From the NCBI GenBank assembly GCA_023511585.1, contig JAIMBF010000014.1, positions 1-49,270 of the forward strand: a DNA stretch of 49,270 nucleotides, given 5' to 3'. A program made the position numbers and the translations under genes. Below, one piece after another: positions 44,823 to 49,270 of the stretch. Position 1 is the first letter of the stretch. The number at the start of each line of letters is the position of its first letter. The DNA is from Terriglobia bacterium (GTDB taxonomy: Bacteria > Pseudomonadota > Alphaproteobacteria > Acetobacterales > Acetobacteraceae). Below the pieces are notes generated by a model, which did no database searches, had not been told where the DNA came from, and saw only the letters and a list, made by a program, of their open reading frames with translations.

Positions 44823-47819
44823 TTATTTGCGTGCGGCCGAGGGTTGCAATTTTTCCAAAATATCGCGAATACGTTTGCGGTACGCCGAAGCGTTGTGCTC
44901 ATGCCGGATACGGGCAAGGGCGCCTTCGCTTATCTTTTTCCACTCCGTTTTGGAATGATAAAGAGCAAGCATGGCGCGCGCAAACTCCTTTGCGTTTGAT
45001 CCCACGCGCAACTCGACGCCATCGCGCCAGCCGAGCTGCGTGGCCAACAAAGCCGTAGCGGCGATCGGCAGCCCATGCGCCGCAGCCTCGTAAACTTTAT
45101 AAGGGGTACCGGCGGCATAGCGTGTCGGCGCAACGAAAACGCGATACTGCTCGTAAAGCGGCGCAAGATCTTCCACCTCACCCAGCAACTTTACGCCGGG
45201 CATCGAAGCAAAAGCGGCAAGATCAACCCCCGGCGCGCGGTATCCTGCAACGGCAAATTCGACGGGCTCTGCCGATGTGCGCGCAACGAGCGGAAGGACG
45301 TCACGCGTGAACCAAAGCAGACCATCATAATTGGGTGAATCGATCGCGTGGATGCTCCCGACAAAGAGAAAGCCGCTGCGATCTTCAAACCGCTTTGTGG
45401 TCGGGACAGGTTCCTTTGTGGTGCCAAGTACAGCGATATCGGAGAAACCGAAGCGTCGCAAACATTCTGCCTCCGCCTCGTTTACCGCCAAAATCAGCTG
45501 GCAGAACCAAGCCGCTTTGAACTCTTCGGCAAGCGCTGCATCAAGATCAAACGGTTGCCCCCGCAGCTTGGCCTTTGCCGCTTCGCGCAACGAAAACACC
45601 GCCTCGGTATCCAAGATGACGGAAACGGCCGAAACATCGGCACAATGGGCCTCTAGCGTGGGTAAAGCCTTGACAAGATTGTGTGCGCGGCTAACCCAGA
45701 CGATGTTGTAAAAACCGCGGCGATCGGCGAAAAGATCTTCAAGATCGTCAATCGTGCGGTCATGCATGATCTCCACGGTTTCCGGCAATGCCTGGGAGAG
45801 ACGTGCCAACGGCACGCGGGTGGGATTGACCGGAAAGATCGTGACTTCGGCCCCGATTTCTGCAAGCGCCCGAATAATATCATTCGACCGGCCGTAGCCC
45901 GATCCCAGCCAAGGCAACGGCACGACGTCTTCCAGAAAGAGCACGCGCCAGCGAGACGGCCGCGCCGAACGTGCAAAAACCGCAAGGTCCGGCCTCGGGG
46001 CGTGCTTTTGCCGAAGGCGGGCTTGATGTTTGAGTTGAAAAACCTTTCTTCTCTCCTCCATCCATCGCGCCGCATCGGCCGAAGAGCGTAAGCTTGCGTG
46101 CTCAAAATGCGTTATCATAACAGCGGGGTCATAGACCACCCGCCAGCCTGCTTCCTGGAGGCGGAAACAAAAATCCACATCTTCGTAATAGGCCGGCGAA
46201 AAGCGCTCATCGAAGCCGCCGATCTGCCGCAACGCTTGCGTGCGCACAAAGAGAAAGGTGCCCGATGCAAAGTCCACTTCTCGCAGGAAATTCGCTTCCG
46301 GCACAGTCGCCGCCGCATCGCGCATGTAGCCGAGAACGCTGCCGTCACGCCAGATCATGGAGCCGGCTTCTTGCAAGCGGCCGTGCGTACGCAAGATTTT
46401 CGCGCCGACGGCTCCAATTGCCGGATCCTTGGCGAGCCGATGGAGTCCGCGTGCGATTGCCATCGGCGAGAGGGTAATATCGTTGTTCATAAACAAAACG
46501 ACGGGCGACTGAACTTCCCGCAGCGCGGCGTTGACCGCACGAACAAAACCGATGTTTTCGGCAAATCGTAAAATGCAAGCTCCATTGACATAGCGTTCGA
46601 TAAAACGGGTTTCATCCAACGAGCCCGAGTCCACGAAAATGAGTTGGATCGGCTCCGCATAGTTCGCTCGCAATGACGCAAGCGCCTGCACCGTTAGCGC
46701 GAACCGATTATGCGCTACAACAATAACGCTAATATGCGGTTCTCCGGTATAGCCGAAATTTAACTCACCGGGCCGCAAAGACGCAGCAAAAACTTCAGCA
46801 CGGCGAAGAAAATCGGCTTGCGCCTTGGTCTCTTCGATATCGGGTAACGTTACAAATTCATGCGCGGTCGCGTGCTCTAAAAGATAGGTAAAAACATCGC
46901 GTGTCCGCCCGTTCTGAACCGCCCTCCGCGCTGCCGCGGAATTGTTCCAATAAGCCTGCAAGTCGCATAAAGGGCTCGGGGCACGAAGCTCGAAAACACC
47001 GTGGCCGAGAAAATGCAGATATCCGGTTTGAAATTTCTTTTCCTGGATGGCATCTTTAACGTCCGGATTCTCTTCCAAATAGTAGCGCTCCGAAAACAAT
47101 GGATGTGGGTCAAATGCGCCCGGCGCGCCGTTGCAAAGATAATGATGAAGCGCGCCAAGATAACGCCTGTCGGAAATCGCGCGCTCGGCATCCGGATAGG
47201 TTTGCCGATACCACCGAGGATCAAAATAAAGGGAGCATTGCGGTTCTACCGTACGGCGATGAAGACGAAGCAAATAAGCGCCGAAAAGGTTGATGGCTTC
47301 CGCTTCACTCGGCTGGTTACGGTCAGCAAAAAAATTGGGATCAAACAAGGTGTGGCATGGGCGCCCCAATCTTACTCCGTGACGCAAATATTCATCGTAA
47401 AGATCGAAGAACCCACGCCGCCTTAACAATTCGATCGAAGGATTTCCGCAGATATTGCCATAGAACGCGCGATCAAACAGCCAATGCGGCGACCGATCGG
47501 CAAAACCTTCTGCGCAATAATGATCGAAACCGGAGCGAAATATCCCTTTCCGGACGAGTTCGCAGACATCCGGATAGCGCTGCAAATACCAGAGCTCATC
47601 AAAAAAGATGTTCGGTGAATGGCCGAGCGACTGACCCTTTTCAAGATAAAAACGCAAGACTTCGGAGCTCTCGGCCCCGGCAAGAGAAGCCTCTGCCTCC
47701 GGATAAGCACGCAGATACCACGCCGCATCGAATGCACCCCAGATCATCGGCACCGCATTCGACGCCAAAAATTCCTCTGCCGGTGCGGATTGTGCCGGTT
47801 TCTTCGGGGCTGAATCCAT
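44823..47819 (-). CDS. Repeat-containing double glycosyltransferase (GT2 plus GT4-like)
   Basis: This large protein of 998 residues has no signal peptide. Residues 29-326 hold seven degenerate repeats of about 42 residues. Each has an aromatic-Asp start (FDAAWYLRAYPEAE, FFDELWYLQRYPDV, YFDPRWYRQTYPDA are the clearest) and a Tyr/Gly-rich end such as HYCAEGFADRSP; the Phe-Asp anchors fall at 30, 73, 115, 159, 199, 242 and 285. A family GT2 domain follows (about 362-600), with ISVIVVAHNR, MNNDITLS and the acidic motif YYEDVDFCFRL. The C-terminal part (about 625-990) is GT4-like, with GSGYGRSNDI and PTRYAAGTPYKVYEAAAHGLPIA-type donor-binding residues. It probably builds a cell-surface polysaccharide; sugars and target are unknown. 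Confidence 0.9.
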   Translation of the reverse strand: MDSAPKKPAQSAPAEEFLASNAVPMIWGAFDAAWYLRAYPEAEASLAGAESSEVLRFYLEKGQSLGHSPNIFFDELWYLQRYPDVCELVRKGIFRSGFDHYCAEGFADRSPHWLFDRAFYGNICGNPSIELLRRRGFFDLYDEYLRHGVRLGRPCHTLFDPNFFADRNQPSEAEAINLFGAYLLRLHRRTVEPQCSLYFDPRWYRQTYPDAERAISDRRYLGALHHYLCNGAPGAFDPHPLFSERYYLEENPDVKDAIQEKKFQTGYLHFLGHGVFELRAPSPLCDLQAYWNNSAAARRAVQNGRTRDVFTYLLEHATAHEFVTLPDIEETKAQADFLRRAEVFAASLRPGELNFGYTGEPHISVIVVAHNRFALTVQALASLRANYAEPIQLIFVDSGSLDETRFIERYVNGACILRFAENIGFVRAVNAALREVQSPVVLFMNNDITLSPMAIARGLHRLAKDPAIGAVGAKILRTHGRLQEAGSMIWRDGSVLGYMRDAAATVPEANFLREVDFASGTFLFVRTQALRQIGGFDERFSPAYYEDVDFCFRLQEAGWRVVYDPAVMITHFEHASLRSSADAARWMEERRKVFQLKHQARLRQKHAPRPDLAVFARSARPSRWRVLFLEDVVPLPWLGSGYGRSNDIIRALAEIGAEVTIFPVNPTRVPLARLSQALPETVEIMHDRTIDDLEDLFADRRGFYNIVWVSRAHNLVKALPTLEAHCADVSAVSVILDTEAVFSLREAAKAKLRGQPFDLDAALAEEFKAAWFCQLILAVNEAEAECLRRFGFSDIAVLGTTKEPVPTTKRFEDRSGFLFVGSIHAIDSPNYDGLLWFTRDVLPLVARTSAEPVEFAVAGYRAPGVDLAAFASMPGVKLLGEVEDLAPLYEQYRVFVAPTRYAAGTPYKVYEAAAHGLPIAATALLATQLGWRDGVELRVGSNAKEFARAMLALYHSKTEWKKISEGALARIRHEHNASAYRKRIRDILEKLQPSAARK

Positions 47820-47825
47820 AGCGGA

Positions 47826-49076
47826 CTAACGACGTCGTCGCGAGAGCAAGACGCTTTCCGCCTGCAGGGTTTCGATCTCTTCGGCGGAGAAACCGGCTTT
47901 GCTCAAGACCTCGACTGTCTGTTCAGCAAAACGGGGCGGCGGCATACGCGTTCCCCCTGGGGTGCGGAGAAACTTGATCGGCGTGCCGAGGCCGCGATAG
48001 CCTTCGCGTTCGCTGACCATTGCGCGGGCGCGCGCATGCGCCGAGTTCAACGCTTCATCCACGGCAAGCACCGGGCCTGCCGGCAGGCCGGCGCGCAACA
48101 GACGCAGCGCCAATTCGTGCCCATCTTGATCGGCGACGGCCGCAGCCAAACGCTCGGCAAGAGCGACGCGATTAGCAAGCCTTGCTGCGTTGGTAGCAAA
48201 GCGCGGGTCATCAGCGAGATCTGCAAGACCAAGCTCGGTGCAGAGTTTGCGAAACTGCCCGTTATTGCCAGCTGCGATAAAGACTTCGCAGGTACGGGTG
48301 CGAAACTTTTCGTAGGGCGCAAGATTGGGATGCGGATTTCCGGTCGGACGGGGCCTCACTCCATTCAGGAAATAGTTGGCGGCATGCGGATGCAGCAGGG
48401 CAATGGCACAGTCGTGCAATGTCATGTCAAGGAATTGGCCTTGGCCTGATCGGTTGCGTTCATAAAGCGCCATCAGAATACCAACGGCGGAGTAAAGCCC
48501 GGTGGCCAAATCCACTACCGGTGTAGCCAAACGCAACGGGCCTGTAGACGGATCCCCGTTGATGCTCATCAGCCCCGTCATGGCTTGCAAAATCGCATCA
48601 TAGCCGGGCAAGCCACCGAGTGGCCCATCCGCGCCGAAACCGGAAATACGGCAATGAATCAAGCGCGGAAAGCGCTTCGATAGGACCTCGGAATATCCAA
48701 GCCCCCATTTCTCCATCGTCCCGGGCTTGAAATTCTCCACCAAAACATCCGCGCCTTCCAAGAGACGAAGCAGGACAGCGCGCCCCTTCGGTTGTGCGAG
48801 ATCAAGCCCGACCGATTGCTTGTTGCGATTAACACCGATGAAATAGCTGGCATCGCGCGTTCCGTCGGCATGTTCCACGAACGGAGGGCCCCAATCGCGT
48901 GTCTCATCGCCCTGCGGCGGTTCCAGTTTGATCACCTCAGCGCCGTGATCGGCAAGAATCATGGTGCAATAGGGCCCTCCGAGAACGCGGGTAAGATCGA
49001 TCACGCGCAAACCCGCCAGAGCTCCTTGCGCGGCACTCGATTTTTCTACAATATCCGTGTTTGTTGCTGAATCCAT
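47826..49076 (-). CDS. CaiB/BaiF family CoA-transferase
   Basis: This family III CoA-transferase of 416 residues moves CoA between carboxylic acids, as formyl-CoA or succinyl-CoA:acid transferases do. It has LAGLRVIDLTRVLGGPYCTMILADHGAEVIKLEPP-type N-terminal residues, VENFKPGTMEKWGLGY, the catalytic Asp160 in GGLPGYDAILQAMTGL, and GQFLDMTLHD. ATG at 49076 is preferred: it lies 23 bases after the end of the upstream gene, whereas a TTG at 49127 would overlap it. It ends only seven bases before the glycosyltransferase start. The acid substrate is not determinable. Confidence 0.93.
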   Translation of the reverse strand: MDSATNTDIVEKSSAAQGALAGLRVIDLTRVLGGPYCTMILADHGAEVIKLEPPQGDETRDWGPPFVEHADGTRDASYFIGVNRNKQSVGLDLAQPKGRAVLLRLLEGADVLVENFKPGTMEKWGLGYSEVLSKRFPRLIHCRISGFGADGPLGGLPGYDAILQAMTGLMSINGDPSTGPLRLATPVVDLATGLYSAVGILMALYERNRSGQGQFLDMTLHDCAIALLHPHAANYFLNGVRPRPTGNPHPNLAPYEKFRTRTCEVFIAAGNNGQFRKLCTELGLADLADDPRFATNAARLANRVALAERLAAAVADQDGHELALRLLRAGLPAGPVLAVDEALNSAHARARAMVSEREGYRGLGTPIKFLRTPGGTRMPPPRFAEQTVEVLSKAGFSAEEIETLQAESVLLSRRRR

Positions 49077-49099
49077 CAAAGCTTTTTCCTGCTGTAGGT

Positions 49100-49270
49100 C
49101 TAGAGATTGTTCCACACGCGCCGACAAAATTCCGGATAATCGCCGCGCATCTTTGCGGCGACCGGTCCGCGCAAGGCCTCAAGCTCCTCAATCTTGGGTT
49201 CGGGCGTTTGCGGAACTTCGGAAGGGCAGTCGAAATCGAAGCCGGTTGCGGCCCGGATGCTTGCAATGCT
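49100..49270 (-). CDS. C-terminal end of a gene entering from outside, possibly a family I CoA-transferase beta subunit
   Basis: Only the last 56 codons before a TAG are in the window. They read IRAATGFDFDCP, then VPQTPEPKIEELEALRGPV and GDYPEFCRRVWNNL. The pattern of an A-TGF-F-P strand, a V-TP-PT/P turn and an E-L-LR helix resembles the C-terminus of glutaconate- or ketoacid-type CoA-transferase beta subunits. The start lies beyond 49270. Its closeness to the CaiB/BaiF gene downstream suggests one operon for organic acid activation. Identification rests on this short tail only. Confidence 0.5.
   Translation of the reverse strand, partial: SIASIRAATGFDFDCPSEVPQTPEPKIEELEALRGPVAAKMRGDYPEFCRRVWNNL

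Follow-up and report, generated by a model that had tools for sequence, protein, structure and literature searches.

O-GlcNAc transferase carries tetratricopeptide repeats (TPRs) at its N-terminus, before the transferase domain. In Caulobacter, according to one study (PMC7591256), the glycosyltransferase FlmG owes its specificity to an N-terminal domain that binds flagellin, and another study (PMC6978808) describes an alpha-helical N-terminal module of the S-layer protein RsaA that binds O-antigen along its length. Here we analyze a 998-residue protein encoded in a 49,270-nucleotide stretch of DNA from a member of the Acetobacteraceae (JAIMBF010000014.1, assembly GCA_023511585.1; hereafter the window), which is one contig of a 3.14 Mb genome in 201 contigs. 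Like FlmG and O-GlcNAc transferase, this protein places an N-terminal non-catalytic module, an array of seven repeat units, ahead of its glycosyltransferase (GT) domains. Unlike the repeats of O-GlcNAc transferase, however, the units are not TPRs by Pfam, are predicted to form three short helices per roughly 43 residues, and also occur on enzymes other than GTs and on proteins of secreted type. One of the latter, an RTX-type protein of Rhodospirillum rubrum, has its units at the N-terminus, the end at which RsaA has its helical module, although this likeness is an analogy only; a Foldseek search of the Protein Data Bank (PDB) with the array model gave a single match, at E 9.8, from a library not confirmed to hold the RsaA chain.

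Our tentative reading, which we consider possible, is that the array is a non-catalytic solenoid that may hold a growing surface polysaccharide or a carrier-linked acceptor for the transferase, with binding itself being what we infer. The catalytic portion of the protein is more conventional. The nearest named models of a GT2-GT4 fusion, TIGR03965 (MftF) and TIGR03087 (stp1), share its catalytic halves and motifs, but scores of 84.4 of 280 and 75.9 of 316.65 bits, respectively, place the window protein outside both families.

The seven-unit array and its predicted fold

The original prediction described seven repeats in front of two GT domains, and the open reading frame (ORF), the anchors, and the spacings are all as it claimed. 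The anchors at residues 30, 73, 115, 159, 199, 242, and 285 read FD, FD, FD, FD, FD, FS, and CD, and their spacings are exactly 43, 42, 44, 40, 43, and 43. The summed pairwise BLOSUM62 score of the seven segments was 665, as opposed to 402 ± 17 in within-segment shuffles (maximum 470, n = 300) and 400 ± 16 in non-overlapping 43-residue blocks of the GT half (maximum 447, n = 500). Two further GT-half controls, one random and one anchored on [FYWL]D, were not used because overlapping segments inflate their scores (637 on average and 833).

The resemblance is not uniform along the array. In single-sequence comparisons, units 1, 2, 5, and 6 are clear, though the pair 1-6 only weakly so; unit 3 is like units 2 and 6, and little resemblance, if any, shows in units 4 and 7. 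A hidden Markov model (HMM) built from units 1, 2, 5, and 6 detected part of units 3 and 7 in the window sequence and left unit 4 undetected. When this model was iterated once (hereafter the unit HMM), 4 to 6 units passed an independent E-value (i-E) of 1e-3 in each full-length relative, the window protein included, so that units 4 and 7 rest on profile comparison and on the fold. For the profile comparison, we used an alignment of 74 array modules (A3): all 21 pairs of unit profiles beat the best of 20 column-shuffled controls, the narrowest being pair 2-4 (15.2 versus 14.3 for its best control). The unit HMM found 643 units in 138 of 4383 ORFs, a count that includes the training sequences and some contigs counted twice, and none in shuffled ORFs. 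On these sequence comparisons, the seven units of about 43 residues are homologous to one another. Conserved residues are mostly common to several units (aromatics, Gly, and Pro), with unit-specific ones including SGF and YC in unit 2, PHWL at its end, and HYL.N in unit 5; units 4 and 7 show low sequence conservation.

The number of units is constant. By alignment, 74 of 74 modules have seven units, with every segment at least 30 residues long, and in five Commensalibacter loci (L036, L064, L073, L088, and L102) three whole modules stand in tandem before the GT2-GT4 pair. A count fixed at seven that changes only by whole modules indicates a fixed module and not an adjustable ruler, and the earlier suggestion of a length ruler set by repeat number is thus disfavored. 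At two loci in draft contigs (L048 and L065), one in-frame stop interrupts the array ORF, which could be a sequencing error.

AlphaFold2 modeled the array alone with a pLDDT of 92.9 and a pTM of 0.89 and the whole protein with values of 92.1 and 0.73. In the full-length model, helix A begins at anchor +2 in all seven units, helix B at anchor +10 in five of them and at +13 and +14 in the other two, and helix C at anchor +19 to +25. Each unit is thus predicted to consist of three short helices in register, in agreement with the expectation that the units would fold alike; a structure lacking any repeating unit is not what the model returned.

The array also lies outside the catalytic domains, as originally proposed. 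Residues 1-345 have no Pfam or NCBIfam match, and the GT2 domain is recognized only from residue 364 (PF00535, E 7.6e-19), followed by the GT4-type domain at residues 817-955 (PF13692, E 6.6e-20). Whole-protein Foldseek comparison matched ordinary GT4 and GT2 structures. The catalytic signatures of the window protein are intact (NND and ED in GT2, K-x-x-E in GT4), and with both domains and their motifs present in its sequence it is a putative two-domain GT2-GT4 glycosyltransferase. No signal or membrane segment is visible by eye, and the protein is judged on that basis to be probably cytoplasmic.

Searches for a described counterpart of the array gave little. None of the 74 modules matched a Pfam family at E 0.001 or better, the best E of any family being 0.0039, and NCBIfam likewise gave no array match at E 0.001 or better. 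Because no Pfam repeat model matched at that threshold, the array is, by sequence, not a TPR, Sel1, or other Pfam repeat. Against PDB sequences, the A3 profile reached two chains at E 1 and nothing better; in VIA-align comparisons with seven chains, none reached Z 2; and PHROGs matches fell only on the GT domains, apart from weak ones. We found nothing on the repeat motif among open-licence PMC papers, as far as their available text goes. In the BFVD database, the best structural matches of the array were glycosyltransferases of giant viruses (Fadolivirus, E 2.8e-3, probability 0.51, TM 0.13; Hyperionvirus weaker), which are too weak to claim a link and offer a lead only, and viral contigs searched with one 114-residue stretch of the array contained no relative.

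Spread of the repeat and loss of catalytic motifs

Profile searches place the repeat on many other proteins, and the matches are not confined to a named GT domain, a restriction that would have counted against the original prediction. The A3 profile found the array in 47 of 398 genomes of the phylum. A second profile, A5, which was made solely from units of other proteins, found it in 22 of 190 genomes of the class, with up to 19 matches in a single genome. A5 recognizes the window array (G000:C173:46914-47225) at E 4.4e-16, although this match is reciprocal and not independent, since the A5 rows were themselves found with A3. It indicates that the window array belongs to the same repeat family as the canonical units of other bacteria, which are about 38 residues long (FDxxYYLxxNPDVAxAGxxPLxHYLxxGxxEGRxP), whereas units of the window clade are about 5 residues longer and form a fixed seven-unit module. 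The 38-residue motif is familiar from the annotation of alphaproteobacterial transferases and calcium-binding proteins but is not known to have a name, and canonical arrays from other bacteria had no match in the Pfam and NCBIfam scans made.

Across several phyla, the repeat is joined to GT2, GT4, GT61, WbsX, and nucleotidyltransferase domains, as well as to sequence with a sulfotransferase match below that model's cut-off, with the units at either end or in the middle of the protein. Proteins outside the window's ortholog group have one to eight detected units. One canonical array matched 121 of 72,556 plasmid records at E 1e-5, with Enterobacteriaceae, a Bacteroides, and two cyanobacteria among the matches listed, and 1 of 50,697 phage records. 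In a tally by hand of 60 of the 121 plasmid records, which relied on annotated names that were not individually checked and included near-copies, 40 were named as GT, GH99-like, rhamnan-synthesis, methyltransferase, or sulfotransferase proteins, 7 as secreted RTX, M10, beta-helix, or similar proteins, and 13 had no useful name. The unit HMM detected 6, 6, 5, and 3 units at E <0.01 in four secreted proteins of RTX or M10 type, and in the R. rubrum plasmid protein (L142:3489-5978) three units occupy the very N-terminus. The R. rubrum gene adjoins type I secretion genes and rfbC. Elsewhere, a Leclercia locus with units adjoins an ABC exporter and a polysaccharide export gene, and the gene of a unit-bearing Bacteroides protein adjoins an ABC transporter.

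Some ORFs of 163-200 residues contain only two units; one of them, L119, has no Pfam or NCBIfam match. In two ORFs of 181-200 residues (L153:1474-2073 and L155:1225-1767), two units are followed by a basic Lys/Thr-rich tail. A contig labeled Mycobacterium sp., perhaps through contamination, encodes an array together with methyltransferase and GT61 domains (L089:5878-8892). In its own genome, the window protein is accompanied by a second GT2-GT4 fusion without any detected unit (L136) and by another protein, L137, that has two units and matches GT2 weakly.

To obtain closer relatives, we kept the best 80 of 205 by similarity to the array, and the 73 in which array, GT2, and GT4 are all present, the window protein included, were compared in full. 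Duplicate contigs or the window itself (L001, L035, L096, L098, and L100) were left out beforehand, as were ORFs without a GT2 or GT4 match, with an array below 100 bits, or with a GT4 domain below 90 bits. In named records, the relatives are mostly Acetobacteraceae. Both catalytic signatures are kept in 49 of the 73, while two are truncated at a contig end and so lack the GT4 site, and in one (L032) Ser replaces the GT4 Glu. The Asp of the GT2 NND motif is lost in 20, of which seven, from Gluconobacter and Neokomagataea, also have E-x-x-D in place of the GT4 K-x-x-E (K908 to Glu and E911 to Asp in 7 of 7). The original suggestion that two domains in one chain make consecutive sugar additions therefore fits the window protein, with its motifs intact, but does not hold across the family; such additions are possible for the window protein, judging by its motifs, and not general among its relatives.

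Loss of the GT2 motif occurred more than once. The array tree has four changes of GT2 label, and a single clade was rejected (p-AU, from the approximately unbiased test, 0.0002), with L039 counted as lost even though it retains the Asp (SAD) and is not among the 20. At least two losses are clear because the intact L030 is sister to a ten-row Rhodopila-like group, far from a nine-row Acetobacter-Gluconobacter group. In Gluconobacter frateurii, an intact copy (L094) coexists with one that looks dead (L103). Three of the seven relatives with both motifs lost were scanned, and their GT2 and GT4 domains still matched the Pfam models. These seven paralogs (L067, L072, L074, L081, L082, L101, and L103) keep the array, appear to be under purifying selection, and in every case adjoin a gene of one cluster (c6), the single scanned member of which (L082) Pfam identifies as SecB.

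The three domains differ in how their conservation varies between these groups. Mean array identity to the window protein is 38.0% in intact, 39.7% in GT2-lost, and 37.8% in both-lost relatives, as compared with 51%, 38%, and 28% for GT2 and 41%, 44%, and 29% for GT4, with L039 again scored as lost in these group means. In pairwise comparisons, all 8 intact pairs show higher conservation in GT2 than in the array, and GT2 is the most conserved domain in 7 of them. Among both-lost pairs, by contrast, 3 of 4 show their highest conservation in the array, in one of them by a single point (array, GT2, and GT4 identities of 90, 86, and 82%; 93, 92, and 92%; and 90, 81, and 74%), and GT2 falls below the array in 4 of 5 GT2-lost pairs. 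Where the ratio of nonsynonymous to synonymous divergence (dN/dS) was computable, it ranged from 0.02 to 0.13 in both-lost pairs (0.04-0.08 for the array, in three pairs) and from 0.05 to 0.45 in GT2-lost pairs, although dS approaches or exceeds saturation in several cases and some sequences appear in more than one pair (L072 was used twice). There are thus indications, from sequence divergence, that relatives with lost catalytic motifs remain under purifying selection.

Gene layout and neighborhood

Features of the array gene and its upstream neighbor in the window
Feature	Coordinates	Strand	Basis
998-aa protein: seven-unit array, GT2 domain, GT4-type domain	44823..47819	(-)	ORF and Pfam
Repeat unit 1, residues 30-72	47604..47732	(-)	Single-sequence scores, alignment, profile comparison, predicted fold
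Repeat unit 2, residues 73-114	47478..47603	(-)	Single-sequence scores, alignment, profile comparison, predicted fold
Repeat unit 3, residues 115-158	47346..47477	(-)	Alignment, profile comparison, predicted fold
Repeat unit 4, residues 159-198, diverged	47226..47345	(-)	Profile comparison and predicted fold only
Repeat unit 5, residues 199-241	47097..47225	(-)	Single-sequence scores, alignment, profile comparison, predicted fold
Repeat unit 6, residues 242-284	46968..47096	(-)	Single-sequence scores, alignment, profile comparison, predicted fold
Repeat unit 7, residues 285-about 327, degenerate, last	46839..46967	(-)	Alignment, profile comparison, predicted fold
GT2 domain, about residues 360-600; NND 445-447 and ED 546-547 present	46020..46742	(-)	Pfam, motif check
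GT4-type domain, about residues 620-990; K908 and E911 present	44850..45962	(-)	Pfam, motif check
Class III CoA-transferase, 6 nt upstream of array gene, same strand	47826..49127	(-)	Annotation, and Pfam on a relative

On one side of the array gene lie genes which, from their translations, we take to be leuB, leuD, leuC, rplS, trmD, rimM, and ffh. Farther off in the window are the hopanoid genes HpnI and HpnJ and a cbb3 oxidase subunit gene; no sugar-transfer gene other than HpnI emerged from a scan of ten genes of the window. A relative of the upstream CoA-transferase directly precedes the array gene in 17 of 80 loci, plus L009 (on the same contig as L100); 12 of these genes cluster together, all on the strand of the array gene, and the one in L031 was identified by Pfam.

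Neighbors vary between lineages. Acetic acid bacteria have 16 loci at which genes of one PF13524-type transferase cluster flank the array gene on both sides, neighbor clusters having been identified from one scanned member each. Eleven of these loci (L069, L076, L086-L088, L091, L094-L096, L102, and L105) lie behind an S1-domain gene resembling rpsA, and the other five have the PF13524-type flanking pair only.

One candidate ortholog was rejected on size and neighborhood, namely PolE of the pol cluster, which acts in Acetobacter pellicle formation. The window gene spans 3 kb beside the CoA-transferase, its other neighbor being presumably leuB. In contrast, polE is about 1 kb and lies behind dTDP-rhamnose genes. 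In a study of K. baliensis, polE deletion shortened a PCR product from 3000 to 1950 bp (PMC5553594).

Possible roles of the array

These results can be accommodated by a model in which seven three-helix units make up a single solenoid over the N-terminal 300 residues. The solenoid would bind a growing surface polysaccharide or carrier-linked acceptor and offer the end of the chain to the GT2 and GT4 domains that follow. In the window protein, both GT domains seem to be active, and two sugars would be added; in relatives with decayed transferase motifs, the holding module may still work, for example as an adaptor or regulator in the same pathway. Since the repeat is found on many glycan enzymes and is kept after loss of catalytic residues, it probably holds a sugar chain or a partner. 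That internal glycan enzymes and secreted RTX-type proteins both carry the repeat points to a ligand encountered on either side of the envelope, for which the cell's own polysaccharide is the simplest candidate. Taken further, the units could be a previously undescribed glycan-reading helical repeat that holds the cell's own polysaccharide on synthetic enzymes inside, lets secreted RTX-type proteins stick to the same polysaccharide outside, and turns the dead-transferase proteins into pure glycan readers that regulate or cap the chain. As a whole, we regard this broader scheme as unlikely.

Several observations weigh against a glycan-holding solenoid. Most of the conserved array residues look structural, and the placement of the array relative to the GT domains is not confident (pTM 0.73). 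Weak, scattered Pfam matches exist among the 74 modules, most commonly to PF19450 (DUF5988; 16 of 74, best E 0.0071). Array conservation after motif loss is not universal: in the both-lost pair L067-L081, the array (86%) falls below GT2 (89%) and GT4 (91%), and among the five GT2-lost pairs it falls below GT4 in two (L041-L044 and L078-L093) and below GT2 in one. Loss of GT4 activity in the both-lost group is itself likely from the substitutions but not certain, and the saturation and shared sequences noted above temper the selection estimates. Furthermore, because the relatives were gathered through the array, the sampling favors array conservation, although the contrast between groups is less affected. 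Finally, most of these facts could also be explained by a protein partner.

Such a partner is central to the strongest alternative, in which the array is a protein-protein scaffold that docks the transferase to other enzymes, to an exporter, or to itself without touching sugar. Helical solenoids usually bind proteins, ORFs with two units alone exist, the flanking PF13524-type genes in the 16 acetic acid bacteria loci are possible partners, and the array is kept after loss of catalytic motifs. Nonetheless, neighbors vary by lineage, HpnI is the only sugar-transfer gene among the ten window genes scanned, and secreted RTX-type proteins that bear the same unit are not easily accounted for by a scaffold. 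We consider this alternative credible but somewhat doubtful.

It is improbable, in our assessment, that the array recognizes a protein acceptor, which would make the protein a cytoplasmic protein O-glycosyltransferase. Caulobacter FlmG sets the precedent through its flagellin-binding domain (PMC7591256), but there is no flagellin or adhesin among the few annotated neighbor genes, most neighbors being without annotation. In addition, the repeat is also found on proteins named methyltransferase, sulfotransferase, and nucleotidyltransferase, and in a locus of capsule-export type. Even less probable is a spacer or stability tag without a specific ligand: the poor conservation of units 4 and 7 would suit such a role, as would a GT2-GT4 fusion (L136) that manages without an array, yet the seven units are fixed by alignment, array dN/dS is low in the three computable both-lost pairs, and unit-specific conserved residues exist. 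A polymer-length ruler is very unlikely, with only its position next to transferases in its favor against the constant count and the whole-module changes.

In summary, the array represents a widespread repeat on polysaccharide-building enzymes, without a match in Pfam or NCBIfam here and without a solved structure. The relatives that have lost their transferase motifs amount to natural experiments in which the role of the array can be told apart from catalysis. If the array does hold sugar chains, it would account for the way in which many surface-polysaccharide enzymes keep hold of their product, and the repeat could be put to use as a modular tool for binding.

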